Shown here: piece by piece, positions 35,005 through 48,336 of the stretch
Position numbering within the stretch: position 1 is the first letter of the stretch
Layout: every line of letters begins with the position of its first letter
Source: Chromatiaceae bacterium
GTDB taxonomy: Bacteria; Pseudomonadota; Gammaproteobacteria; Chromatiales; Chromatiaceae
DNA: 64,000 nt
Assembly (NCBI GenBank): GCA_027078745.1
Contig: JALWWO010000018.1
Coordinates: 1 to 64,000 of the forward strand
Reading direction: 5' to 3'
Translations under genes and position numbers: made by a program
Notes under the pieces: model-generated
What the model was told of the DNA's origin: nothing
Database searches by the model: none
The model's input: the letters and a program-made list of their open reading frames with translations, nothing else

Positions 35005-36483
35005 ATGAACAATGCTTTGAGTCAAGCCCGATGGTTGTTGCTACTGGGCTTGTGTGCCGTCACGAGCGTTTGGGCGGACGCCACACCCCCGCCGAAAGCG
35101 CCGCCCAAGGAGGAGCGCCCTGTGGAAATTCTCCGGGGCTTCGATCGACTGAGCCGAGAAAGCCGCACCTGCGTTTCCTGCCATCGGGAGAAGACCCCCA
35201 GTATCTACCATCAATGGGGCGCCTCTAAACACTATCGGGCTAATGTGGGCTGCTATGAGTGCCATCAGGCGAGCACCAGTGATAAAGATGCCATCATGCA
35301 CAAGGAGTTTGTGATCTCAGTGGTGGTCTCCCCCAGGGATTGCGCCCAATGCCATGAAAAGGAGGCCGCTCAGTTCGAGCGCAGCCATCATGCGGCAGCA
35401 GGCAATATCCTCGGGTCTCTGGACAATCGCTTGGCCGAAGTGGTGGAAGGGATGCCCATGCTAGACGGCACTTCCGCAGTCACCACCGTGGGTTGCGCCG
35501 GTTGCCATGGTTCCATCGTGCGGGTGAACTCGGATGGTTCTCTGAAACCTTCCACCTGGCCTAACACGGGCATCGGGCGCATCAATCCGGACGGTTCCCG
35601 AGGGGCCTGCTCCGCCTGTCATCTGCGCCATAATTTTTCCGCAGCCCAAGCCCGAGATCCGGATAACTGCGGTCGCTGTCATCTGGGCCCAGACCATCCT
35701 CAGAAGGAGATCTATGAGGAATCTGCCCACGGCGTCGCCTTCCGGGCCCATCGGGACAAGATGAACTTGGAGTCCAGCAAGTGGATCGTGGGCGAGGATT
35801 ACACCGCCGCCCCCACCTGCGCTACCTGCCACATGTCCGCCACCAAGGATTTGCCCGTCACCCATGATGTGGGAGATCGCATCTCCTGGAACCTGCGGGC
35901 GCCGGTGTCCTTCCGCATCGATGAAAAGGATCTGGCCAAGGGCAAGCAGGTCAAGTCCTGGCGGGAGCGCCGCAAGGATATGAAAAATGTGTGCATGAAC
36001 TGCCACGGTCGCAATGTGGTGGATGCCCATTACGAACAGTTCGATGCCGTGGTGCTCACCTATAACGAGAAGTTCGCCAAGCCCGGCCTGAAGCTCATGA
36101 AGGCCCTTTACGCCAACGGCCTGTTGGACAAGGTGAAGTTCAACGAGGATGTGGAATGGACTTGGTTCTATCTCTGGCACCACGAAGGCCGCCGGGCCCG
36201 CCACGGTGCCGCGATGTTCTCGCCGGATTACACCCATTGGAACGGCATGTTCGAGGTCGCCAACCGGTTCTATATCCACATGGTGCCGGAAATCCAAGCG
36301 CGCATCGACAAAGCGCGGGCGGAAGGCAAGACGGAAGCGGCGGATGCGGTGCAAAAGGTGCTGGATGAGGTGTTATCTTCTGCGCCCCATCGCTGGTTCC
36401 GAGGGGAGGAGCCACCGCCTTTCTGGCGGCCCGATCAAACGGACGATCACGGCTTCCAGTTGCAGAAGACCGCAGCGCCTTAG
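35005..36483 (+). CDS. Octaheme cytochrome c, hydroxylamine oxidoreductase (HAO)-like
   Basis: A 492-residue secreted protein with a signal peptide ending near SVWA (about 24) and eight C-x-x-C-H heme sites at C56, C83, C113, C164, C202, C222, C272 and C330. The spacing and segments such as VTHDVGDRISWNL place it in the HAO family, which includes ammonia-oxidiser HAO and the epsilon-type enzymes that reduce hydroxylamine or nitrite. I could not establish whether the tyrosine that cross-links the catalytic P460 heme is present, so direction of catalysis is open. It has a good GGGAG site and is followed by an intrinsic terminator. Confidence 0.88.
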   Translation: MNNALSQARWLLLLGLCAVTSVWADATPPPKAPPKEERPVEILRGFDRLSRESRTCVSCHREKTPSIYHQWGASKHYRANVGCYECHQASTSDKDAIMHKEFVISVVVSPRDCAQCHEKEAAQFERSHHAAAGNILGSLDNRLAEVVEGMPMLDGTSAVTTVGCAGCHGSIVRVNSDGSLKPSTWPNTGIGRINPDGSRGACSACHLRHNFSAAQARDPDNCGRCHLGPDHPQKEIYEESAHGVAFRAHRDKMNLESSKWIVGEDYTAAPTCATCHMSATKDLPVTHDVGDRISWNLRAPVSFRIDEKDLAKGKQVKSWRERRKDMKNVCMNCHGRNVVDAHYEQFDAVVLTYNEKFAKPGLKLMKALYANGLLDKVKFNEDVEWTWFYLWHHEGRRARHGAAMFSPDYTHWNGMFEVANRFYIHMVPEIQARIDKARAEGKTEAADAVQKVLDEVLSSAPHRWFRGEEPPPFWRPDQTDDHGFQLQKTAAP

Positions 36484-36496
36484 AGTACCCCCACTT

Positions 36497-36523
36497 CCTC
36501 CGCCCCGTCGGGCGGGGGTTTTT
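36497..36523 (+). terminator. Intrinsic terminator after the octaheme cytochrome gene
   Basis: The stem CCGCCC (36500-36505) / GGGCGG (36510-36515), extended by further G-C and G-U pairs, is followed by TTTTT (36519-36523). It should end or attenuate transcription before the nine-heme cytochrome gene. Confidence 0.8.
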
Positions 36524-36578
36524 CCCAGCTTGTTCGGGGCAGGTTGGGAAAAACCTTTTCTACAGTGCAGTATTGACC

Positions 36579-38489
36579 ATGAACCGATCCCTGTTTCTCT
36601 TCTGCTCGCTCTTTCTGCTGAGCTTCAGCGCTTTCCCCAAGGATTTCAGCTTGGCAGACTGTCAGGAATGCCACGGGCAGAAGGGCTTCGCCACGCCCGA
36701 CGGCCAGGCGAACAAGGCACTCTTCGTGGCAACTCAGGCTTTTCAAGAGAGCGTGCATGGCAAACTCGTCTGTACAGACTGCCATCAGGATGTGGAAAAG
36801 CTCCCCCACCGCAAGACCGGATTTCAAAAGGTGGATTGCGTGGGCTGCCACGAGCATTTGGAAGCTCGCTGGGCACCGGGGAAGCGGGCCCGCTGGTTGG
36901 CGCCGGAACCGCCCAAGGTGGTGACCTTCAGCCGGGATTATGTGCTCTCCGCCCATGGCGATGATTCCGTCCCCAACAACGCCAGCTGCGCCACCTGCCA
37001 CACGGCCCACTATGTCTATCCCTCTTCCGATCCCCGGGCCAGCACTTACCGCCTCAACTCGCCCCAGCTCTGCGGGGCCTGCCACACCAAAGCCTTTGCG
37101 GAATATCGCCAATCCATGCACGGACAGGCCCTCAAGCGGCCCTGGCTGGGAGATTCCGCCACCTGTTCGGACTGCCACAGCGCCCACCGCGTGAGCGATC
37201 TTTCCAAGCTGCCCGCCCATCGGGTGGTCACAGAGAACTGCGGGGAATGCCATGAAGAAGCTTTAGAAGGCTACATGAACACCCCTCACGGGCAGCTCGC
37301 TTGGCATGGCAACGAAAGAGCGCCCAAGTGCGTGGACTGCCACGGGGGACACGACATCACCCATGTGAACGATCCCGATTCCCCCGTGAACCCGACGAAC
37401 AAGGTAAAGACCTGCAAACAGTGCCATGAGAAGGCCAATGCCCAGTTCGCCAAGTATCAGCCCCATGCCACCACCACGGATTTCGAGCGCTATCCTCTCA
37501 TGTGGCTCGTGGCCAAGGGCATGGGCGGGCTGATCATTTTCGTGATCCTGTTTTTCTATCTCCATTCCGTGCTCTGGTTCTGGCGAGAGAAAAAGGAACG
37601 GCCGGTGATCTATGAGCGGGTGGAGTCCCGGGTTTATCCGGTGCGGGTCAAGCGCAAGCGGCCGAAGAGCGGGGTCCACTACCGCCGCTTTCACTGGGCC
37701 TGGCGCATCAACCATTGGTTGCTGGCCCTGTCCCTCATGACACTGGTCTTCAGCGGCATGGTGGTCATGTATCCCAACACGAGCTGGGCCCAAACCCTGG
37801 TGCCCTTGCTGGGCGGGCCCACAGTGCTCAACTGGATTCATCGGGGGGCCGGGGTCATCTTCCTGTCCACGGTGTTCGGCCATGCCATTGTGGTGTTGGT
37901 GCGGGTGCTGCGAGATCCCGATTTCCGCTGGTTCGGGCCGGATTCCCTGTTGCCCCGCCGCAAGGATTGGGAGGACATGAAGGGGCAGTTCCGCTGGTAC
38001 TTCGGCAAGGGGCCCCAACCCCGTTTCGACCGCTGGACCTATTGGGAGAAGTTTGACTACTGGGCGGTCTACTGGGGCGCCCTGGTCATCGGGGTGTCCG
38101 GGCTGTTGCTCTGGTTCGCAGAGGAGGTGGGACAAGTGCTCCCGGGCTGGGTCTTCAACATCGCTACGGTAGCCCACGGGCTGGAAGCCTTCCTAGCGGT
38201 CATGACTCTCTTCGTGGTGCACTTCTTCAACAATCATTTCCGACCCAGCAAGTTCCCCCTGGACACCGTCATGTTCACCGGCAGTTGGGATCTGGAAGAA
38301 TTCAAGGAGGAGCGCCCCGAGGAATATGCTCGCCGCAAGGCTTCCGGGGAATTGGAACGCTATCTGGTGAAACCCCCTTCTAAGTCTTGGAATCTGGTGG
38401 CCCATATCCTGGGATTCAGCCTGCTGGGCATCGGATTGATCCTGCTGATCTTAGTCCTCAACGGCTTCTTCCAGTCCGGTTTGTTCTAG
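36579..38489 (+). CDS. Nine-heme cytochrome c fused to a membrane cytochrome b
   Basis: A 636-residue fusion. After a signal peptide (about 1-20) there are nine C-x-x-C-H sites (about C28, C65, C87, C137, C165, C196, C221, C251, C279). Then follow an isolated helix (about 308-335) and four or five helices with paired histidines (RFHWAWRINHW, WIHRGAG, VFGHAIVVL, VAHGLEAFL, VVHFF), resembling the diheme cytochrome b of formate dehydrogenase and thiosulfate reductase gamma subunits. It probably exchanges electrons between membrane quinone and the periplasm, perhaps with the HAO-like protein. The start is set at ATG rather than the TTG two codons earlier. Confidence 0.85.
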   Translation: MNRSLFLFCSLFLLSFSAFPKDFSLADCQECHGQKGFATPDGQANKALFVATQAFQESVHGKLVCTDCHQDVEKLPHRKTGFQKVDCVGCHEHLEARWAPGKRARWLAPEPPKVVTFSRDYVLSAHGDDSVPNNASCATCHTAHYVYPSSDPRASTYRLNSPQLCGACHTKAFAEYRQSMHGQALKRPWLGDSATCSDCHSAHRVSDLSKLPAHRVVTENCGECHEEALEGYMNTPHGQLAWHGNERAPKCVDCHGGHDITHVNDPDSPVNPTNKVKTCKQCHEKANAQFAKYQPHATTTDFERYPLMWLVAKGMGGLIIFVILFFYLHSVLWFWREKKERPVIYERVESRVYPVRVKRKRPKSGVHYRRFHWAWRINHWLLALSLMTLVFSGMVVMYPNTSWAQTLVPLLGGPTVLNWIHRGAGVIFLSTVFGHAIVVLVRVLRDPDFRWFGPDSLLPRRKDWEDMKGQFRWYFGKGPQPRFDRWTYWEKFDYWAVYWGALVIGVSGLLLWFAEEVGQVLPGWVFNIATVAHGLEAFLAVMTLFVVHFFNNHFRPSKFPLDTVMFTGSWDLEEFKEERPEEYARRKASGELERYLVKPPSKSWNLVAHILGFSLLGIGLILLILVLNGFFQSGLF

Positions 38490-38573: not shown

Positions 38574-39158
38574 ATGACAAAACAAGCACTTTCCGCTTGG
38601 CTGGATCGGCTGCACCGAGAGATAGAGGGCATCGAAGTGCGGCAGCAAAGCGCCCGCCGCTTGCAACTCCATGTGGCGGCGGATGCCCTGCCCACGCTAT
38701 TAGAGTTCCTGCGCGGCCAGGCTTCCTATATTCATCTGTCCGCCATCAGCTGTGTGGACTGGCCAGCAGATCAGCAATTCGAGCTGGTCTATCACCTCTG
38801 GTCTTACGAAACCCGCACTCTGGTTTCCGCCCACACCCGCATTCCCCGAGAACCCGGGATCTATGTGTCGGTATACGACCTCTACCAACCGGCGGCCTTC
38901 TTCGAGCGGGATATCCACGAGATGTTCGGAGTGCGCTTCGAGGGCAGTCCGGATCAAAGCCGTTTCATCCTCACCGAATGGGACGGGCCCCCCCCCATGC
39001 GGAAGGAATTCGATTCCGAAGCCTGGGTCAACGCCCATTTCGATTGGCAGGACTACAACCCGCCCTGGTTGCAGGAACTGACCGCTCAGGGCGGTGGGAT
39101 CGCTATTCCGCCGGATGAACAGCGGTTCAGCCGCCGCACAGACAGCCACGAGACCTGA
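38574..39158 (+). CDS. NuoC-like (30 kDa subunit) protein of an unusual complex
   Basis: A 194-residue member of the complex I 30 kDa family. The signature FERDIHEMFGVRFEGSPDQS corresponds to the E-R-E-x-x-D-x-F-G-(I/V)-x-F-x-G-H-P-D pattern. In complex I and membrane hydrogenases this subunit packs against the 49 kDa / large subunit, and a NuoD-like gene follows after 3 bases. It starts 84 bases after the cytochrome fusion gene. NuoA, NuoB and the membrane subunits are not in the window, so it should not be called part of a normal complex I. Confidence 0.85.
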   Translation: MTKQALSAWLDRLHREIEGIEVRQQSARRLQLHVAADALPTLLEFLRGQASYIHLSAISCVDWPADQQFELVYHLWSYETRTLVSAHTRIPREPGIYVSVYDLYQPAAFFERDIHEMFGVRFEGSPDQSRFILTEWDGPPPMRKEFDSEAWVNAHFDWQDYNPPWLQELTAQGGGIAIPPDEQRFSRRTDSHET

Positions 39159-39161
39159 GCC

Positions 39162-40304
39162 ATGCGCCCGGAAAATTACGAAGCGCGACGACATCCCCCA
39201 AGCCACGAATACGAGCTGAACATCGGCCCCAATCATCCGGGTATCGAGGGCAACTATGCCCTCAAGCTCCGGCTTCAGGGGGATCAGGTCATTGAGGCCC
39301 GCGCGGATGCGGGCTATCTCCACCGCGGTTTTGAGAAGCTCATGGAAGGGCGGCTTTGGATTCAGAACCTCGCCCTCACGCCCCGAATCTGTGTGCCGGA
39401 TCCCGTGCCCATGGAGGTGAGCTATTGCCTGGCAGTAGAAGATCTCTGCGGCTTGCAGGTGCCCAAGCGGGCCCAGTACCTGCGGGTATTGCAGTTAGAG
39501 CTGTCCCGACTGGCCGCCCATCTGTTCACCTTCGGCGGGCATGCTGCTACTACTGGCATGTACACCCCTATGTTCTGGGGGGTGGCGGATCGGGATCAGA
39601 TTCTGGATCTGTTCGAAGAACTCTCCGGCGGGCGGGTCTATCACATCTACAACATCCCCGGGGGCGTGCGGCGGGACCATCCGGCGGGCTGGCTGGAACG
39701 GGTGGCCAATACCCTGGACTATCTCGAATCCCGATTGCCGGACTACGATCATTTGCTCTTCCAAAATCGGGTGTTCGTGCGGCGAGCCAAGGGAGTGGGC
39801 GTCATCAACCAGGAACAAGCCTTGGAATGGGGCGTTACGGGACCCAATCTGCGGGCCTGCGGATTGCCCTTCGATGTGCGGCGAGAGGATCCCTATCTAG
39901 TCTACGAAGAATTGGATTTTGAGATCCCCACGGAAGAAGCCGGCGATGCCTGGGCCCGGGCACTGGTGCGGCGGCAGGAACTGTTCCAGAGCATCCGTAT
40001 CATCCGCCAGATCCTGGAACGCCTGCCCAGCATTCCGGGGCCCGTCCGCACACCCATCCCCAACCCCCTGGCCTGGCGAGTGCCCGCAGGCTCCACTTAT
40101 ACCCGCGTGGAGTCCTCTAAGGGAGAACTGGCTTGGTATGTGGTTTCCGATGGGTCTGAACATCCCTATCGCATCCACGTGCGGGGACCTTCCCAGATGC
40201 ACGCGGTGCAGGTGCTGGAAAAGACCGCCACCGGCGCCCGCATCGAGGATGTGGCCCAGATCATGTTTTCCCTAGATGCCTGCCCGCCGGAGGTGGATCG
40301 CTGA
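39162..40304 (+). CDS. NuoD-like / [NiFe]-hydrogenase-large-subunit-like protein with altered site residues
   Basis: A 380-residue member of the 49 kDa NuoD / group 4 hydrogenase large-subunit family, complete to the conserved C-terminal VDR. The quinone-site His of NuoD (H in P-Q-H-P-x-x-H-G) is Glu here (E29 in PNHPGIEG). The quinone-site Tyr (R-M-D-Y) is replaced by Val (V78 in RICVPD). At the positions of the four NiFe cysteines the residues are C77, D80, C374 and E377 (RICVPD and DACPPE). It therefore matches neither a quinone-reducing NuoD nor a NiFe hydrogenase. Alignment was done by eye. Confidence 0.85.
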   Translation: MRPENYEARRHPPSHEYELNIGPNHPGIEGNYALKLRLQGDQVIEARADAGYLHRGFEKLMEGRLWIQNLALTPRICVPDPVPMEVSYCLAVEDLCGLQVPKRAQYLRVLQLELSRLAAHLFTFGGHAATTGMYTPMFWGVADRDQILDLFEELSGGRVYHIYNIPGGVRRDHPAGWLERVANTLDYLESRLPDYDHLLFQNRVFVRRAKGVGVINQEQALEWGVTGPNLRACGLPFDVRREDPYLVYEELDFEIPTEEAGDAWARALVRRQELFQSIRIIRQILERLPSIPGPVRTPIPNPLAWRVPAGSTYTRVESSKGELAWYVVSDGSEHPYRIHVRGPSQMHAVQVLEKTATGARIEDVAQIMFSLDACPPEVDR

Positions 40305-42139
40305 TGAGCCGTATCGAACACAGTGCTCGGGGGCGGGTGCTCGCCCCCCTGAAGAACCTGCAATTCTTCGCCCGACCCGCCATCACCGAATCCCTGGATC
40401 CCCGCCCCGCTTCGGAGAATTACCGGGGCTTTCATCTGAATGATTGGTCCCTGTGCATCGGCTGCAGCACCTGCCAAAAGGTCTGCGACAATGCAGCCAT
40501 CACCATGGTAGCGGTGCCGGAACTGCCCCAGGACCCAGCCCGCGGCATCCGCAATCTGCGCCCCGCCATCGATTATGGCCGCTGCTGCTGGTGTGCCCTC
40601 TGCGTGGATCTCTGCCCCACGGGTTCTATCAGCCTGTCCCGGGAATATGTGCATACCTGTGTGGATGCCCAGTTGGACAGCTATTTCGTCCTGCCGGACG
40701 CGCAGGGAGTGCACGGAGTCCCCTTTCCCAAGGGCTGGGCGAAATCCGAAGCGGCGGATTTGCTCGCCCTGCATCGTCCGACAATGCGGCAGCTGCCGCC
40801 GGAAGTCCGCATCCGAGATTTCTCGGAGATCGTGGCAGGCTATGACCGAGAACAAGCGGTGCTCGAAGCCTCCCGCTGCGTGCAGTGCGGCCTATGTCAG
40901 GATGCCTGCCCCACCCATATGCACGCACCGGAATACATCCGCGCCATCTGGCAGCAGGATTTCGAAGAGGCGGTGCGCCAGATCTACCGCACCAATCCTT
41001 TCGCCCACACCTGCGGGCGCGTTTGCACGCACCGTTGTGAAACTGCCTGTTCCGTGGGCCATCGCGGGGAACCCATCGCTATCCGCTGGTTGAAGCGCTT
41101 TGCCATGGACGCAGTGCCACCCGAACGGGTGCGGGAGATCGTGAAGGCAACCAAGGTAGCTTATCTCACTGGCAAGCGGGTGGCCATCGTGGGCGCTGGG
41201 CCCGCCGGGCTGACCGCCGCCTTCGATCTGGCACGGCAGGGGCATGAAGTTACCGTGTACGAAGCCCAACCCGAAGCCGGCGGCATGACCCGCTACGGCA
41301 TTCCCTACTACCGGTTGCCCGCAGAGGCATTGGATTGGGATATTCAGGTCATCACCGATCTGGGGGTTCGCATTCGGTACAACACTCGCGTGGGTGTGGA
41401 CATCACCCTGGCGGAATTGCACGAAACCCAGGATGCGGTCTTGCTCGCGCTAGGGCTTTGGATGGGCCGTTCTACCCGCATTCCGGGCAGCGATGGGCCC
41501 GGGGTTTATCGCGCGGTGCAGCTTTTGCGGGAGGTGGCAGCAGGGCGGGAGATTCCTGTGCCGGAGCGGGCAGTGATCATCGGTGGGGGCAATGTGGCTA
41601 TGGACATCGCCCGCACCCTGGCCCGCTTGCAGAAACAACGGTTCGATCGAGTGGCTATTACCGTGACCGCCCTGGAGGATCGGGCCCATTTCCTCGCGGA
41701 TCCGGAAGAGGTGCGGGAAGCTTTAGAAGAAGGCATCGAGATTCTAGATGCCCGCGGGCCCCAGGAAATCCTGTTCGAGGGGGATCAGGTGAAGGGGCTG
41801 CGCACCTGGCGCGTGCAAGCGATCTTCGATGAGCGGGGCCGGTTTTCACCCACCTATGACGCTTCCGACGAGCGAATTCATCCGGCTGAGATGGTCGTGG
41901 AAGCCATCGGACAGATGGGGAACTTGGATCTGCTGGGGGAAGCGCTCACGGAAGCGTTGGACTGGCAGCGGGGCCGCCTCAAGGTAGACGATGGAGGCCG
42001 CACGAACTTGGATTGGCTCTGGGCGGCGGGCGATCTGGTGCGCGGCCCGGATGTGGTCTCCGCAGTGGCGGACGGCCATCGGGTAGCAGCAAGCATCCAT
42101 CAGTATTTATCGAGCAAAGGGGATCGGGTTGATGACTGA
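40304..42139 (+). CDS. Fusion of a NuoI-like 2x[4Fe-4S] ferredoxin with a GltD-like FAD/NAD(P) oxidoreductase
   Basis: A 611-residue fusion. Residues 1-150 carry two ferredoxin sites, C51/C54/C57/C61 and C94(or 95)/C97/C100/C104. Residues 190-250 carry two more cysteine sets (C192/195/198/202 and C237/241/245/249), as in the glutamate synthase small subunit. Residues 290-600 form a two-dinucleotide flavoprotein with the FAD motif GAGPAG (297-302), the NAD(P) motif GGGNVAMD (427-434) and a C-terminal GD-type FAD motif (AAGDLV). The ATG overlaps the NuoD-like stop by one base. This would act as the NAD(P)H electron entry or exit. Confidence 0.88.
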   Translation: MSRIEHSARGRVLAPLKNLQFFARPAITESLDPRPASENYRGFHLNDWSLCIGCSTCQKVCDNAAITMVAVPELPQDPARGIRNLRPAIDYGRCCWCALCVDLCPTGSISLSREYVHTCVDAQLDSYFVLPDAQGVHGVPFPKGWAKSEAADLLALHRPTMRQLPPEVRIRDFSEIVAGYDREQAVLEASRCVQCGLCQDACPTHMHAPEYIRAIWQQDFEEAVRQIYRTNPFAHTCGRVCTHRCETACSVGHRGEPIAIRWLKRFAMDAVPPERVREIVKATKVAYLTGKRVAIVGAGPAGLTAAFDLARQGHEVTVYEAQPEAGGMTRYGIPYYRLPAEALDWDIQVITDLGVRIRYNTRVGVDITLAELHETQDAVLLALGLWMGRSTRIPGSDGPGVYRAVQLLREVAAGREIPVPERAVIIGGGNVAMDIARTLARLQKQRFDRVAITVTALEDRAHFLADPEEVREALEEGIEILDARGPQEILFEGDQVKGLRTWRVQAIFDERGRFSPTYDASDERIHPAEMVVEAIGQMGNLDLLGEALTEALDWQRGRLKVDDGGRTNLDWLWAAGDLVRGPDVVSAVADGHRVAASIHQYLSSKGDRVDD

Positions 42140-42641
42140 CACAGAAGGGGACAAAACCGCCTACGAGCGGATCCGAGAGAAAAAAACCCTGAAGGATATT
42201 CTGGCGGTTGCCGCTTCCTTTGAAGAGAGTGCCCGAGATTTCTATCGGGATCTGGCCTCCAAGGTGAGCAAAAACCTCCGTTGGCTCGTGGAGGAATTAG
42301 CAGACGAAGAGCAGCGCCATGCGGATCTTTTCTCGAAACTGGCGGAACAGCCAGATCTGGAAGCCCGGCTAAAAACACTGGTGGAGGTGCCCGCTACGGA
42401 TTCCCGGTTCTCCGACTGCATCCATCTGCCGGATTTAGGTGAACATCCGGACGATCAGGCGATTTTGCAATATGCCCTGGGTCGGGAGGACATCGCCATG
42501 AAGCATTATCGATCCCTGGCCCAGCGCACGGAACCGGGGCCCATTCGGGATCTCTTTTTATTCCTAGCCCAGGAAGAGACCGAGCACAAGCGGGAATTGG
42601 AAAAGGTGTACTATGAACTCATCCATTCCGGCGGGGTCTAG
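42132..42641 (+). CDS. Rubrerythrin/ferritin-like diiron protein
   Basis: A 169-residue four-helix protein with the paired diiron ligands FEES...EEQRH and GREDIA...EETEH (E-x-x-H in helices 2 and 4). Such proteins act as peroxidases, oxygen protectors or iron stores. No rubredoxin cysteine site follows. The ATG overlaps the end of the fusion gene by 8 bases (a TTG one codon earlier is less likely), so it is part of the same operon and may protect oxygen-sensitive clusters. Confidence 0.8.
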   Translation: MTDTEGDKTAYERIREKKTLKDILAVAASFEESARDFYRDLASKVSKNLRWLVEELADEEQRHADLFSKLAEQPDLEARLKTLVEVPATDSRFSDCIHLPDLGEHPDDQAILQYALGREDIAMKHYRSLAQRTEPGPIRDLFLFLAQEETEHKRELEKVYYELIHSGGV

Positions 42642-43094: not shown

Positions 43095-43182
43095 GCTGCC
43101 CCTTATCTCGGGTCGATCCCTAAGCCGCCCAATTCTTTCAGAAATGGGCGGGTATTTCCCTGAATTTTGTGTCGAGCGCATC

Positions 43183-43668
43183 ATGAACAGAACACACGCA
43201 AAAACTCCCCAAAAGAAAAACCATCTCGGAACCGTAACGATCGGGCTCAGCCTAGCCGCCTTGGTCTGGGTCGGGGGCGGCTTGCTGTACCGTGCCCAAG
43301 CCGCAGAGGTATTGGTCTACAAAAGCCCAACCTGTGGTTGCTGCAACGCTTGGATTCGCCATCTGGAAAAGCACGGCTACCAGGTCAAAGCGCAAAACCG
43401 CAGGGATCTGCTCAGCCTCAAGGGCAAGCTCGGCATCCCCAGAAACCTTCGCTCCTGTCATACCGCTCGGGTGGAAGGCTATTTGATCGAGGGTCATGTG
43501 CCCGCAGAAGACATCGATCGGTTGCTTGCGGAAAAGCCTGAGATCTCAGGGCTCGCGGTGCCCGGGATGCCCATGGGTTCCCCGGGCATGGAGGGACCGC
43601 GGAAGGATGCTTATTCCGTCATCGCCTTTGATAAGGACGGTCGCCGACAGATCTATGCGAGCCATTGA
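43183..43668 (+). CDS. DUF411 metal-binding protein
   Basis: A 161-residue protein with an N-terminal membrane anchor or signal (about 11-34) and the DUF411 signature SPTCGCCNAWIRHL. A second conserved cysteine sits in LRSCHTARVEGYLIEGHVPA. DUF411 proteins are commonly found beside copper resistance genes and are thought to bind copper in the periplasm. The start is set at MNRTHAKT; a longer frame (43144) is possible but not supported. It ends 1 base before the next gene. Confidence 0.88.
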   Translation: MNRTHAKTPQKKNHLGTVTIGLSLAALVWVGGGLLYRAQAAEVLVYKSPTCGCCNAWIRHLEKHGYQVKAQNRRDLLSLKGKLGIPRNLRSCHTARVEGYLIEGHVPAEDIDRLLAEKPEISGLAVPGMPMGSPGMEGPRKDAYSVIAFDKDGRRQIYASH

Positions 43669-43669
43669 G

Positions 43670-44098
43670 ATGAAAATAGCACTGCATAGCCTGTTGGCGC
43701 TCTTGCTCTTCTCCCTGACACCCTGGGCCACCGCCCATTCACCCAGCGAACGAGCGCGGATCTTCTTCGTCAATCTACAGGATGGGGCCGTGGTCAAAAA
43801 CCCCTTCCGGGTGCAGTTCGGCATCCAGGGCTTCGGCATCGTGCCCGCAGGTACGAAAGATCAGCGCCGCCATCACGGGGGGCATTTTCATCTGTTGGTA
43901 GATGTGCCCCAACTGCCGGATCTGGAGGAGCCGATTCCCAGAGATGCCCGGCATCTCCATTTCGATGAGGGCGAGCGGGAAACCATCCTAACGCTCTCTC
44001 CTGGGGTGCATACTTTACAATTGCTCCTGGGAGATGAGGCGCACGAACCGTTCGAACCGCTCCTGATCTCCGAGAAAATTCGGATTGTTGTGCAGTAA
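43670..44098 (+). CDS. DUF4399 secreted protein
   Basis: A 142-residue secreted protein with a signal peptide ending near ATA (about 22) and a DUF4399-type domain containing RIFFVNLQDGAVVKNPF and HHGGHFHLLVD. The histidine cluster RRHHGGHFH suggests metal binding. It begins 1 base after the DUF411 stop. The family's exact role is unknown. Confidence 0.82.
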   Translation: MKIALHSLLALLLFSLTPWATAHSPSERARIFFVNLQDGAVVKNPFRVQFGIQGFGIVPAGTKDQRRHHGGHFHLLVDVPQLPDLEEPIPRDARHLHFDEGERETILTLSPGVHTLQLLLGDEAHEPFEPLLISEKIRIVVQ

Positions 44099-44120
44099 TT
44101 CGTCATCACCATTGCGGAGG

Positions 44121-44148
44121 CAAGCACCCCTGGCGACCGGGGTGCTTG
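44121..44148 (+). promoter_or_regulatory. Perfect 10-base hairpin before the cytochrome c gene
   Basis: CAAGCACCCC-TGGCGACC-GGGGTGCTTG lies 23-50 bases after the DUF4399 stop and ends 8 bases before the cytochrome c start. It lacks a T-tract, so it is more likely an mRNA-stabilising or translation-affecting structure than a terminator. Confidence 0.6.
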
Positions 44149-44156
44149 AAACATCG

Positions 44157-44624
44157 ATGAGCACCCGAAGATTCCAAGTACTGATCGCCTGCCTATGTCT
44201 CAGCGCTGCCGGCGGGCTACAGGCTGCTGCCAACATGCGCATGGGGCCCGGCGGCATGATGAATTGCAGCATGGCCCGCCATTATCAGGCCATGCGGATC
44301 GGTATTCCCGCACCCTACGCGGGGATGCGCAATCCCCTCGCCCCCACTCAGGAAACGCTGGAAGCGGGCAAAAAGCACTTTCTCAGCCATTGCGCTTCCT
44401 GCCATGGGGAACAGGGCTATGGGGATGGGCCTGCGGCCCTTGCGCTGAATCCCCCGCCCCCCAATCTCCATGGTGTCCTGCGGCGTGGCACCGCTCGGGA
44501 TGATTACCTGATGTGGACCATCAGCGAGGGCGGCAAAGCGTTCGGCTCCGCCATGCCTGCCTACAAGGAGACCTTGAGCGAAGAAGCTCGCTGGCAGATC
44601 ATCCATTTTCTTCGGAACCTATGA
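44157..44624 (+). CDS. Monoheme cytochrome c
   Basis: A 155-residue secreted class I cytochrome c with a signal peptide (about 1-25), a Met-rich N-terminal segment (NMRMGPGGMMNCSMARHY), one heme site CASCH (about C79), and a distal methionine near AMPAYKETLS. Such cytochromes carry electrons to periplasmic oxidases or reductases. The Met-rich stretch could hold copper. The start is the ATG just after the hairpin; a longer upstream frame is not supported. Confidence 0.9.
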   Translation: MSTRRFQVLIACLCLSAAGGLQAAANMRMGPGGMMNCSMARHYQAMRIGIPAPYAGMRNPLAPTQETLEAGKKHFLSHCASCHGEQGYGDGPAALALNPPPPNLHGVLRRGTARDDYLMWTISEGGKAFGSAMPAYKETLSEEARWQIIHFLRNL

Positions 44625-44634
44625 GGCAATTCCC

Positions 44635-45039
44635 ATGTACTATTTTGCTACCCGTCTCCCCGGCACCCTAGCGGAAATCGAACCTCGGGTGGTGGAAGCC
44701 CTGAAATCGGAGGGCTTCGGCATCCTCACAGAAATCGACGTGCAGGCCACTCTGAAGAAGAAGCTCGGTTTGGAAAAACGACCTTATAAGATTCTGGGTG
44801 CTTGCAATCCCCCCCTGGCCAATCAGGCCTTGGACGCAGAGCCGGAAATCGGTCTCTTGCTGCCCTGCAATGTGGTCGTTCGCGAGGAAGAAGGGGGCAC
44901 CGTGGTGGTGTCCTTCATGGACCCCCATGCAGTCCTAACCTTAGTGGATCGGGCAGGGGTGGAAGAACTGGCTGGAGAAGCGCGGGCCAGACTGCTGCGG
45001 GTGCGGAATCAGCTGGGCGGGGAATATACCGGCGGATGA
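44635..45039 (+). CDS. DUF302 family protein
   Basis: A 134-residue soluble protein, small alpha/beta domain, with the DUF302 features SEGFGILTEIDVQATLKKKL and KILGACNPPLANQAL and a cysteine in LLLPCNVVV. The family is common near metal and sulfur metabolism genes in proteobacteria; its function is unknown. It lies 10 bases after the cytochrome c gene. Confidence 0.88.
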   Translation: MYYFATRLPGTLAEIEPRVVEALKSEGFGILTEIDVQATLKKKLGLEKRPYKILGACNPPLANQALDAEPEIGLLLPCNVVVREEEGGTVVVSFMDPHAVLTLVDRAGVEELAGEARARLLRVRNQLGGEYTGG

Positions 45040-45131
45040 AGAATTTTTCTGGACCTGTGCCGAATGGGTTCTAGGCATTGGGTGCTAGTGGAAACCGCGC
45101 CCCATTTCAACGCCAACAGAGAGATATACCG

Positions 45132-45584
45132 ATGAAAACCTTACCAATCCTAGCATTAACCGCCCTAATAACCGCCGTACCCCATTGGGTCCTGGCGGAC
45201 GAATCCAGCCAGCAAGGCATGTCCGGCGCCCTGCCGCAGATGCAAGCCGCTGCGATGAACCGTCAGATGAGGGAGCAGCGGCAGCAGATGATGATGCAGA
45301 AGCGGCAGGAGATGCGTGCGAAGCGGATGCAGCAGATGCAGCGGATGCAGGCCCACATGGACCGTTTGGAACAGTCCCTGAACAACATTGAATCCCTGCT
45401 GCGGGAGATGAATCAGCGCCAGCAGCGGATGATGCAGCAGAGACAGCAACGGATCTTGCGCAGACAGCAAAGGATGCAGCAGAAGCAGCGGCAGATGCAG
45501 GCCCACATGCAGCGGATGGAACAGCATTTCAGCAGGGTGGAGGCCTTGCTCGGGGAATTGGTTCGCCTTCAGAAGGCTAAATAG
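45132..45584 (+). CDS. Secreted Met/Gln/Arg-rich coiled-coil protein
   Basis: A 150-residue protein with a signal peptide ending near VLA-DES (about 22). The rest is a long helix rich in Met, Gln and Arg with repeated Q-R-M and Q-M motifs (RMQQMQRMQAHMDRLEQ and QRQMQAHMQRMEQ). Such low-complexity, Met-dense coiled coils may bind copper or serve structurally; no named family is recognised. It precedes the Cu-type ATPase gene by 88 bases. The start with a GAGAGA site is at MKTLPILALTA. Confidence 0.7.
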   Translation: MKTLPILALTALITAVPHWVLADESSQQGMSGALPQMQAAAMNRQMREQRQQMMMQKRQEMRAKRMQQMQRMQAHMDRLEQSLNNIESLLREMNQRQQRMMQQRQQRILRRQQRMQQKQRQMQAHMQRMEQHFSRVEALLGELVRLQKAK

Positions 45585-45672
45585 CGGGTCTGAACTGAGG
45601 GTGCGGGGACACCGGAACCCGCGCCTCGTCTGCTTCAACACATGCGTTCCTGAGGATTGAGGAGAAAGACCG

Positions 45673-48336
45673 ATGAACGCAGCCCCCCAGTCATTCCGAG
45701 ATCCGGTCTGCGGCATGCGTGTGTCCGTGCAGAGCGAACACCGGATGCAATTCGAAGGGCAGGACTATTATTTTTGCAGCGCCCATTGCAAGCAGAAGTT
45801 TTCCCAAGATCCCAAGGCTTATCTGCACAAGGAAGAAACGCAGCCTCATAGCTGTTGCCAACCCAAAGCCCCAGCAATACCCATTGCCATTCAGCCTGCG
45901 CCTGCTCTGAAAGATCCGGTCTGCGGCATGCGTGTGTCCGCGCAGAGCGAACACCGGATGCAGTTCGAAGGGCAGGATTATTATTTTTGTAGCGCCCATT
46001 GCAAGCAGAAGTTTTCCCAAGATCCCCAAGCCTGTCTGCACAAAGAAAAAGAAGAAGCACAGCTGCATAGCTGTTGCCAGGGGGCAGAGGCACCGGTCAC
46101 GCCCAGCCCGGGAGCGCGCTATTTCTGTCCCATGTGTCCCGGGGTGGAACAGGATCACCCGGGCACCTGCCCCAAGTGCGGCATGGCCTTGGAACCCGCC
46201 GGCGCACCCGCGCCCAGCACCCGCACCGAGTACATTTGCCCCATGCATCCGGAAGTCGTGCAGGATCATCCGGGCGCCTGCCCAAAATGCGGCATGGCGC
46301 TGGAACCGCGCACGGTCCAGGTGGAGGAGCGCAACGAAGAGTTGGAGGACATGAGCCGGCGCTTCTGGGTCAGCACGGCCCTGGCCTTGCCCCTGTTCCT
46401 GCTGGCCATGATCGCGGATCTCGCGCCGAGCTGGCTGCCCGCAGGACTCTCCATGAAAGCAGTGCAATGGATCGAATTTGCCCTAGCCACGCCGGTGGTG
46501 CTCTGGGGCGGCTGGCCCTTCTTCGTGCGCGGCTGGCAATCCGTACTGAGCTGGAACCTCAATATGTTCACCCTCATCGGTCTGGGGGTGTCCGTGGCCT
46601 GGCTCTACAGCCTGGTCGCTTTGCTGTTTCCAGGCATCTTCCCCCCGAATATGCAGCGGGAAGACGGCACGGTACCCGTCTATTTCGAAGCGGCAGCCGT
46701 CATCACTGCTTTAGTCCTGCTGGGGCAGGTGTTGGAACTGCGCGCCCGCAGCCGCACCAATGCGGCCATCAAGCTCTTGCTCGGACTCGCACCCAAGACC
46801 GCCCGCATTGTGCGGGAGGACGGGGGGGAAGTGGATATTCCCCTGGAACAGGTAAAACCCGGCGACGTCCTGCGGGTGCGTCCCGGGGAGAAGATCCCCG
46901 TGGATGGCACGGTCATCGAGGGCAGCAGTTCCGTGGATGAATCCATGGTGACAGGTGAGCCCATCCCCGTGGAAAAGGGGCCCGGAGATCCCCTCATCGG
47001 TGCCACGGTCAACGGCACCGGCAGCTTGCTCATGCGGGCGGAAAAGGTGGGCAGCGATACCTTGCTGGCCCAGATCGTGCGCATGGTCAGCGAAGCCCAG
47101 CGATCCCGCGCGCCCATTCAGAAACTGGCGGATCAGGTAGCCGCTTGGTTCGTGCCCGCTGTGGTCTTAGTCGCCGTGCTCACCCTCATCGTCTGGGGCT
47201 TCTTCGGGCCGGAACCCAGATTGGCTCATGCCATCGTCAACGCGGTCGCCGTACTCATCATCGCTTGTCCCTGCGCCCTGGGCCTGGCTACGCCCATGTC
47301 CATCATGGTGGGCACAGGGAAGGGGGCCACTCTGGGGGTGCTCATCAAGAATGCGGAAGCCTTGGAGATCTTGGAAAAGGTGGATACTTTGGTGGTGGAC
47401 AAGACCGGTACCCTCACCGAAGGCAAGCCCCAGTTAGTCTCAGTACAGACCGCGCCGGGATTTGTGGAAGAAGAAGTGTTGCAGCTTGCCGCCAGCTTGG
47501 AACGAGCCAGCGAGCATCCCTTGGCAGAAGCCATCGTACAGGGCGCCCGAGATCGGGGCTTGGATCTGGTTCCTACCGAGCAGTTCGAATCCCTCACGGG
47601 ACAGGGTGTAACCGGTATGGTGGCGGGTCGGAAGGTCGCCTTGGGCAATGAGAAACTGCTGGAAACCCTCGGGATCGATCCCGGCCCCTTGGCGGAAGCG
47701 GCCGCATCGGGACAGGCCCAGGGGCAGACGGTCATGTTCGTGGTCGTGGATGGGCAGATCGCCGGAATCCTCGGGGTGGCCGATCCTGTGAAGGCGTCCA
47801 CGCCCCAGGCCATCGCCGATCTCCATGCGGAAGGGGTGAAGGTGGTCATGCTCACTGGCGACAACCGCAGGACCGCCCAAGCAGTGGCCGAGCGCCTGGG
47901 CATTGACCGGGTGGAAGCGGAGGTGCTGCCGGATCAGAAGGCGGAAATCGTCCGAAAGCTCCAGGCGGAAGGGCATGTGGTGGCCATGGCGGGGGATGGC
48001 ATCAATGACGCGCCTGCCCTCGCCCAAGCCCAGGTAGGCATCGCCATGGGTACGGGCACGGATGTTGCAATGGAAAGCGCCGGGGTCACCTTGGTCAAGG
48101 GGGATTTGCGGGGCATCGTGCGGGCGATTCGCCTGAGCCGAGCCACCATGCGCAACATCCGCCAGAATCTCTTCTTCGCCTTTGTCTACAACTCTCTAGG
48201 CGTTCCTGTGGCAGCGGGGGTGCTCTACCCAGTCTTCGGGCTGTTGCTCTCTCCCGTCCTCGCAGCGGCCGCCATGAGCTTTAGCTCCGTGTCCGTGATC
48301 ACCAACGCTCTCCGACTTCGGCATGTGGAGATCTGA
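45673..48336 (+). CDS. Copper-type P1B ATPase with two YHS and two heavy-metal-binding domains
   Basis: An 887-residue heavy-metal ATPase. The N-terminus holds two YHS domains (about 9-55 and 79-126) and two heavy-metal-binding motifs (about 150-174 and 187-212); the first reads [11 protein letters not shown] where the second has [11 protein letters not shown]. The transmembrane metal site CPC ([12 protein letters not shown]), phosphorylation site [15 protein letters not shown] and [11 protein letters not shown] are intact. This supports Cu(I) export; other soft metals cannot be excluded. The YHS pair comes from a 114-base direct repeat. A SHOCT gene follows closely. Confidence 0.94.
45700..45813 (+). 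repeat. 114-base direct repeat, copy 1 (YHS domain)
   Basis: Nearly identical to the copy at 45913-46026. It encodes the core of the first YHS domain ([20 protein letters not shown] and on). The small number of differences points to a recent duplication or gene conversion inside the ATPase gene. Confidence 0.9.
45913..46026 (+). repeat. 114-base direct repeat, copy 2 (YHS domain)
   Basis: Second copy of the 114-base repeat, 213 bases after copy 1, encoding the second YHS domain ([20 protein letters not shown] and on). Between the copies lies a segment with CCQPKAP, echoed after copy 2 as CCQGAEAP. Confidence 0.9.

Follow-up and report, generated by a model that had tools for sequence, protein, structure and literature searches.

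The closest described system to the one considered here is the archaeal complex MBS (also Mbx) of Pyrococcus furiosus (structure 6U8Y), in which, by the published account (PMC7684303), sulfanes are cut at a proximal cluster that has three cysteines of the subunit MbsJ as its ligands. MBS is without the quinone residues corresponding to Nqo4 His38 and Tyr87, has kept two NiFe cysteines out of four, and tolerates mutation of MbsJ C25 and of MbsL C85 and C385 without loss of activity. Our subject is a run of four genes at positions 38,574 to 42,641 of a 64,000-nucleotide stretch of DNA (the window) from contig JALWWO010000018.1 of a Chromatiaceae bacterium (assembly GCA_027078745.1), which encode a NuoC-like subunit, a NuoD-like subunit, a fusion of NuoI with a GltD-like flavoprotein, and a rubrerythrin-like protein. 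We consider it probable, if by no means assured, that these form the cytoplasmic arm, NuoB apart, of an ion-pumping MBS/Mbx-type NADH:polysulfide oxidoreductase, the membrane half of which is encoded on another contig (C4) of the same genome.

Such a complex has been named in bacteria before. A ‘putative Mrp-Mbx complex’ appears in the tubeworm symbiont Endoriftia (PMC11636981), where MBX is listed with complexes whose function or in vivo direction is unknown; the portions of that paper drawn on mention neither a GltD fusion nor a rubrerythrin, and the likeness drawn here is by name and not by genome comparison. The type being already named, this is no new kind of system, and an earlier note on this DNA, which knew of no named precedent, was mistaken on that point, the subunits matching archaeal MBS/Mbx best. 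With MBS the present system shares the Mrp-type arm and the missing quinone residues, and the three cysteines that are ligands in MBS are invariant in it; it differs in joining the MbsN counterpart to a GltD-like flavoprotein, in having a rubrerythrin besides, in its bacterial hosts and, in the window genome, in its split operon. With respiratory complex I (Nuo) it has homologues of NuoB, C, D, H and I in common, but no NuoE, NuoF or NuoG was met among the examined genes of the module or of the C4 half, the quinone residues are absent and the arm is of Mrp type. The family NF010590 (PRK13984, ‘putative oxidoreductase’) covers the fusion end to end, its name being silent on partners, and the C-terminal two thirds of the fusion are like the NfnL/GltD flavoproteins, from which most members differ in having Leu-Glu instead of Arg-Arg at one site. 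What appears new, in that we did not find it described, is the joining of an NADH-type GltD fusion and a rubrerythrin partner to an MBS-type complex; among the matches listed, no description of either in an MBS cluster was recognised in the open-access literature.

The four open frames, and the two parts of the fusion, are as follows.

38574..39158, plus strand: NuoC/MbsK-like subunit, 194 aa (PF00329, 2.9e-27; top PDB chain MBS 6u8y_K, 75 bits, runner-up 56)
39162..40304, plus strand: NuoD/MbsL-like subunit, 380 aa (PF00346, 1.3e-83; RICVP and SLDACPPEVDR motifs)
40304..42139, plus strand: NuoI and GltD fusion flavoprotein, 611 aa (NF010590, 792 bits, end to end)
40391..40660, plus strand: NuoI/MbsN-like part of the fusion with two [4Fe-4S] clusters, aa 30-119 (top PDB match MBS 6u8y_N)
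40808..42118, plus strand: GltD/NfnL-like part of the fusion, aa 169-605 (PF14691, PF07992; N-terminal Fe-S, FAD and pyridine-nucleotide sites)
42132..42641, plus strand: rubrerythrin-like diiron protein, 169 aa from ATG (PF02915, 1.2e-16)

On rechecking frames and starts, the close packing noted earlier was borne out: NuoC and NuoD are 3 bases apart, NuoD and the fusion overlap by 1 base, and the fusion and rubrerythrin by 8, the last figure assuming the rubrerythrin ATG at 42132 (the mechanical TTG start is at 42129). The Pfam families in gene order are Complex1_30kDa; Complex1_49kDa; Fer4, Fer4_20 and Pyr_redox_2; and Rubrerythrin. The 611-aa fusion is no chance read-through, because its alignment to NF010590 runs from end to end (aa 9-605 to 8-609 of 611), although its score of 792 bits falls short of the curated cut-off (946).

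The relation to MBS was followed subunit by subunit, taking in the C4 genes described below. For all seven subunits compared (NuoD, NuoB, NuoC, NuoH, NuoL-like, MrpB and the NuoI part; MrpC, MrpD, MrpE, MrpF and MrpG lay outside the comparison) the best PDB chain is from Pyrococcus MBS 6U8Y: NuoD matches 6u8y_L at 396 bits (runner-up Thermus Nqo4, 280), NuoB 6u8y_J at 213 (119), NuoH 6u8y_M at 178 (54), the NuoI part 6u8y_N at 65.5 (39), the NuoL-like subunit 6u8y_X, which we take to be MbsH', at 173 (111), and MrpB 6u8y_E at 144 (62). Two antiporter-like subunits and a Mrp-type membrane arm, which belong to an MBS/Mbx complex, are present.

The residues tell a similar story. Counts here and below are of distinct rows (88 for NuoD, 78 for NuoB, 99 for the fusion, 66 for rubrerythrin), a row having to cover at least 85% of the query for NuoD, 70% for NuoB and 90% for the fusion; rows kept, the window's included, were 95 from 102 matching loci for NuoD, 84 from 88 for NuoB and 104 from 112 for the fusion. 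Glu29 and Val78 of the window NuoD align with Nqo4 His38 and Tyr87; position 78 is Val in 88/88 rows, and position 29 is Glu in 63 and His in none of the 88. The equivalents of MbsL C85 and C385 are C77 and C374, with Cys at the first position in 86/88 rows and at the second in 72/88, the remaining 16 having Tyr there. In NuoB the equivalents of MbsJ C28, C93 and C123 are invariant (78/78), and the position of MbsJ C25 is Cys in 58 rows and Gly in 20; the window genome's NuoB has six cysteines, the three non-ligating ones varying across rows, and it aligns without gaps to MbsJ over a span three residues shorter than in MbhJ, the place of that gap not being seen. The cluster cysteines of the NuoI part are invariant in 21 rows. 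Judged by these alignments, evolution spares the residues that work on MBS found essential, and the others are lost in one sub-branch. Because the best chains are those of 6U8Y, the quinone residues are missing and of the six NuoB cysteines only the three that correspond to the ligands of the MBS catalytic cluster are invariant, the system is by its sequences a bacterial MBS/Mbx-type complex. A [NiFe] hydrogenase (group 4, MBH) was considered and rejected, RICVP and DACPP each retaining one of two cysteines.

The module was earlier described as lacking NuoB and pump subunits. That is so beside the four genes, but not across the genome (G000; 2.18 Mb in 24 contigs, 97% complete), which has two NuoD genes (three match rows, since one gene, on contig C9, is hit in two pieces) and two NuoB-family genes. 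Contig C4 carries NuoB, NuoH, a NuoL-like subunit, MrpD, MrpC, MrpB and MrpF (MrpC, MrpD and MrpF assigned by Pfam), with MrpE- and MrpG-like frames beside them read from the DNA by eye; with NuoH, two antiporter-like subunits and Mrp genes at hand, a module without membrane subunits is no longer an apt description. In the relative L039 the counterparts of these genes sit immediately upstream of NuoC-NuoD-fusion-rubrerythrin, with identities of 75% for NuoB, 73 for NuoH, 60 for the NuoL-like subunit, 53 for MrpD, 53 for MrpC and 56 for MrpB, and the order upstream in relatives is MrpB-MrpC-MrpD-NuoL-NuoH-NuoB. Among the 38 carrier genomes, the window's own excepted, G023 has the NuoB closest to the window genome's (80%); its genes form a single operon, with NuoD 83% and the fusion 72% identical to the window's; a locus from a Thiohalocapsa metagenome-assembled genome (L072) is slightly closer in NuoD (84%) and fusion (73%).

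Is the split then a matter of contig ends? Both halves lie well within their contigs (C4 of 76.7 kb and the window contig, C17, of 114 kb), so a contig edge does not explain it; a misassembly is not formally excluded. An ordinary nuo operon is present as well, as the proposed check for nuoA-N elsewhere in the genome brought out, and it stands not next to the module, where a full complex I set would have told against the earlier note's proposal, but on C9, with NuoE, F, G, H, I, J, K, L and N by Pfam and NuoB, NuoC, NuoD and a NuoM-like frame by similarity (NuoA was outside the search). A ParA/MinD-like ATPase gene lies between its nuoF and nuoG (L004:13513-14460, on G000:C9).

The fusion occurs in 32 of the 142 genomes searched, its own included and a few as fragments; in the 31 of 141 others, relatives are 42-72% identical, and the GltD part alone is in 12 further genomes, of 44 with any match. 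A wide scan of one genome per species, 84,980 species in all, gave at least 399 candidate stretches encoding a relative; the best 80 loci were kept and pooled with the relatives and, after removal of loci sharing the first 200 match residues, 106 remained. By record title the best 80 are mainly gammaproteobacterial (Thiohalocapsa, Thiolapillus, Sedimenticola, Thiodiazotropha, tubeworm and lucinid symbionts, Parabeggiatoa, Thiomargarita), the others including Parasulfuritortus, some Alphaproteobacteria, Spirochaetes, Halanaerobium, Cloacimonadota, Fermentibacteraceae and Bacteroidota. Where the upstream sequence was long enough, a same-strand NuoD precedes the fusion in 87 of 93 loci (at least 1.3 kb; 71 within 200 bases), NuoB in 75/75 loci that have NuoD (at least 3.5 kb), NuoH in 70/73 (at least 4.5 kb) and a NuoL-like gene in 60/63 (at least 6.5 kb), and the Lamellibrachia and Escarpia symbionts have the complete order from MrpB to rubrerythrin. 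Conservation of order in other genomes, which the earlier note had asked after, is thus found, and the four genes are supported as a conserved unit.

The six of 93 loci lacking the upstream NuoD (L113, L114, L118, L119, L120 and L122) are from Thiotrichales-type and similar genomes in which the fusion stands apart from NuoD. Each of those genomes has an MBS-type NuoB elsewhere (67-70% identity), with NuoC beside it in 6/6 and NuoD within the short stretch in 3/6; NuoH was seen in 0/6 within that short stretch around NuoB, membrane subunits not having been searched for genome-wide. The operon thus breaks at different points in different lineages. Overall, a matching MBS-type NuoB (E 1.1e-46 or lower) is present in 37 of the 38 fusion-bearing genomes searched, that of G037 being a piece at a contig edge and that of G073 51% identical; the sole carrier without one, G013, is a genome 40% complete.

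The GltD-like part, amounting to the C-terminal two thirds of the fusion, has five Nfn/FDH-type chains as its best matches (212-273 bits). Those chains have a YRR motif, whose Arg-Arg we take to be the NADPH pocket; the window fusion has Leu457-Glu458 in its place. The Glu458 position is Glu in 90/99 rows, Arg-Arg stands there in five (L065, L066, L138, L142 and L148) and Arg-Lys in one (L140). Having Leu-Glu instead of Arg-Arg at this one site points to use of NADH by most fusions and of NADPH by a few. The suggestion made at the outset that the GltD-like part takes the place of NuoEFG as the pyridine-nucleotide site is likely correct.

A rubrerythrin is recognised downstream of the fusion, or at its end, in 75 of the 95 loci whose sequence runs on for 700 bases or more. 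The window protein scores 61.8 bits against PF02915 (cut-off 22.8), a Pfam scan of it reported no rubredoxin domain, and of the diiron positions E32, E61, H64, E120, E150 and H153 (counted from the TTG start) each is conserved in 65 or all 66 of the distinct stand-alone homologues of 140-230 aa, longer frames being left out. Of 17 long frames scanned, five (from three Spirochaete records, an unnamed bacterium and a contig of Rhodobacteraceae) continue past the flavoprotein into a C-terminal rubrerythrin-like domain (2e-10 to 3e-59), a fusion that argues for partnership of the two; the remaining Spirochaete fusion tails gave no rubrerythrin match. By eye, the fused copies lack some of the ligand histidines or glutamates, which suggests that docking can outlast the metal chemistry. 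The Spirochaete-type fusions of L124, L125, L126 and L127, the last grouping with Spirochaetes in trees, end (about aa 590-748) in such a domain with degenerate metal ligands. In L142, L148, L145 and L151 (Cloacimonadota, Bacteroidota) the first or second gene after the fusion encodes, instead of rubrerythrin, a protein of ~153 aa that is CBS-domain-like by eye.

A second type of backbone is found in L053-L060, L143, L149 and others, with GTGC in NuoB instead of CTGC and mostly a long antiporter subunit (about 1040-1060 aa); its NuoD is only 46-50% identical to the window's, the fusion being 55-60% and rubrerythrin 57-64% identical. In trees of the window and 50 chosen loci, out of 112 with a fusion match, the NuoD data reject uniting all 36 Pseudomonadota rows in one clade (p-AU 0.0001), a grouping found with the fusion (SH-aLRT 99 and 100 in two trees). 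These trees suggest that the fusion was exchanged between two MBS backbones, and no more than suggest it since the fusion data leave the NuoD grouping standing (p-AU 0.19 and 0.28).

How might the whole work? We infer that the two halves assemble, and what follows on substrate, direction, preference for NADH over NADPH, pumping and the part played by rubrerythrin is put conditionally. NADH would give up its electrons to the FAD of the GltD-like part, and these would pass by the [4Fe-4S] clusters of that part and the two clusters of NuoI to the proximal cluster of NuoB. If built as in MBS, this cluster would have three cysteine ligands and one open iron. Polysulfide or another sulfane would be cleaved there, driving movement of H+ or Na+ through NuoH and the Mrp-type arm. 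The rubrerythrin would dock on the fusion and probably remove O2 or peroxide near the exposed cluster. In sulfur-storing bacteria the complex could be the pump for anoxic respiration of stored sulfur.

Many of the named carriers belong, by record title, to lineages whose physiology is sulfur-oxidising, and the window genome has dsrA on contig C18 (655 bits). The gene is found in 27 of the 32 fusion carriers (three partial or below cut-off) and also, over the cut-off, in 61 of 110 non-carriers; it is common enough in the latter to support the setting and not the function, and as proof of a sulfur role it was set aside as not discriminating. Spirochaetes, Halanaerobium, Cloacimonadota and Bacteroidota are largely fermentative anaerobes. 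Beggiatoa, under anoxia, respires stored sulfur with stored polyhydroxyalkanoate or hydrogen (PMC4959497), and the portion of that paper drawn on names no enzyme for this, the term polysulfide reductase being absent from it. Since the MBS-type residues are conserved, fermentative anaerobes are among the carriers and sulfur bacteria reduce stored sulfur under anoxia, the forward reaction, from NADH to polysulfide with pumping of ions, is the most likely.

Several points weigh against an NADH:polysulfide oxidoreductase. The driving force from NADH to polysulfide, going by the potentials, is small. The complex is read from genes, with its halves on different contigs in the window genome. The preference for NADH is taken from a single residue position and the fold, and for one of the five chains compared the printed alignment is offset at the YRR site; moreover ferredoxin is the electron donor of MBS, and the fused NAD(P)H flavoprotein suggests a different donor here. 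The argument for an open iron comes from a sub-branch, the window genome itself keeping MbsJ C25 and both MbsL cysteines. Rubrerythrin is unrecognised in 20 of the 95 loci, and dsrA, as just seen, is no close predictor of the fusion. Finally a 2013 paper, in the part of it drawn on, disputes that a Hyf/Mbx-like cluster found in Ca. Symbiobacter mobilis and Comamonadaceae serves to reduce sulfur (PMC4053972); that cluster may or may not be close to the present one.

The best-surviving alternative keeps the same complex and reverses it, ion-motive force driving electrons from sulfide or persulfide, taken up at the proximal cluster, to NAD+ or ferredoxin for CO2 fixation. Complex I relatives work reversibly, and the many carriers in sulfur-oxidising lineages would fit. 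So would the co-expression network of Endoriftia (PMC11636981), in which the putative Mrp-Mbx has first neighbours in common with the reductive TCA cycle, but not with the Calvin cycle. Carriage by Spirochaetes, Halanaerobium, Cloacimonadota and Bacteroidota, in which one would expect the forward reaction, and an ordinary Nuo in the same genome which could itself perform reverse flow, leave this unlikely, though it deserves to be kept in mind. A variant of complex I passing NADH electrons to quinone by way of the GltD-like input, with no role in sulfur, might be read from NuoC and NuoD belonging to complex I Pfam families and from NuoD passing the curated cut-off of NF004739 (455 against 360 bits); it is lowered to the improbable by Glu and Val at the Nqo4 His38 and Tyr87 positions, Val being universal, by the better scores of MBS chains for the subunits compared, and by a nuo operon with NuoE, NuoF and NuoG already in the genome.

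Poorer still is the prospect that fusion and rubrerythrin are mainly an NADH peroxidase or O2-scavenging pair with energy coupling secondary, which the well-kept diiron ligands of stand-alone copies and the separation of the pair from the Nuo part in some Thiotrichales-type genomes would favour; we hold it very doubtful, those genomes keeping NuoB, and peroxidase activity being no constant feature given the fused copies without ligand residues and the loci without recognisable rubrerythrin. The stand-alone soluble or membrane-associated four-protein complex of the earlier note, without NuoB or pump, to which the separation of the four genes from NuoB and the membrane genes in the window genome lends some colour, is rejected as scarcely credible: the missing subunits are encoded on C4 and correspond to the neighbouring genes of relatives, in both MBS and complex I it is NuoB that holds the cluster adjoining NuoD, NuoB is absent only from the 40%-complete genome among 38 carriers, and the six genomes with the fusion apart from NuoD still carry NuoB-NuoC elsewhere.

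The genes to either side of the module deserve a word. At 35005-38489 lie a multiheme cytochrome (492 aa, PF13447) and a fusion of multiheme c with b561 which we take to resemble CbcL of Geobacter, with a terminator-like hairpin and T run between the two at 36497-36518 (12 such sites occur in the region against 6.5 expected, making this weak evidence). CbcL-like matches, some partial, are in 36 of 142 genomes, its own included; that of G055 is 85% identical and on a different contig from the NuoI-GltD fusion of G055. No CbcL-like gene is labelled in any of 32 annotated relative loci, and no same-strand multiheme homologue was found in upstream stretches of up to 10 kb at the 106 fusion loci, on which ground these genes were rejected as part of the system; they look like unrelated neighbours. 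Downstream, at 43144-48336, a DUF411 protein is followed by a cytochrome-c-like frame and a copper-type P-ATPase (the latter two by eye), which looks like a separate metal-handling cluster.

Returning to the NADH-fed MBS, a larger step, tentative though possible, is that with its docked rubrerythrin as a shield it is the ion-pumping enzyme by which purple sulfur bacteria, Beggiatoa and Thiomargarita types and the symbionts of tubeworms and lucinids respire, under anoxia, the sulfur that they store, and a complex I relative whose NADH input was acquired independently of NuoEFG. If true, the stored-sulfur respiration of the Beggiatoa type would gain a gene cluster open to knock-out, with relatives in animal symbionts. 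There would also be a second, independent NADH input in a relative of complex I, arrived at by fusing a GltD-type flavoprotein to NuoI and not by adding NuoEFG, and that would bear on the history of how complex I was assembled.

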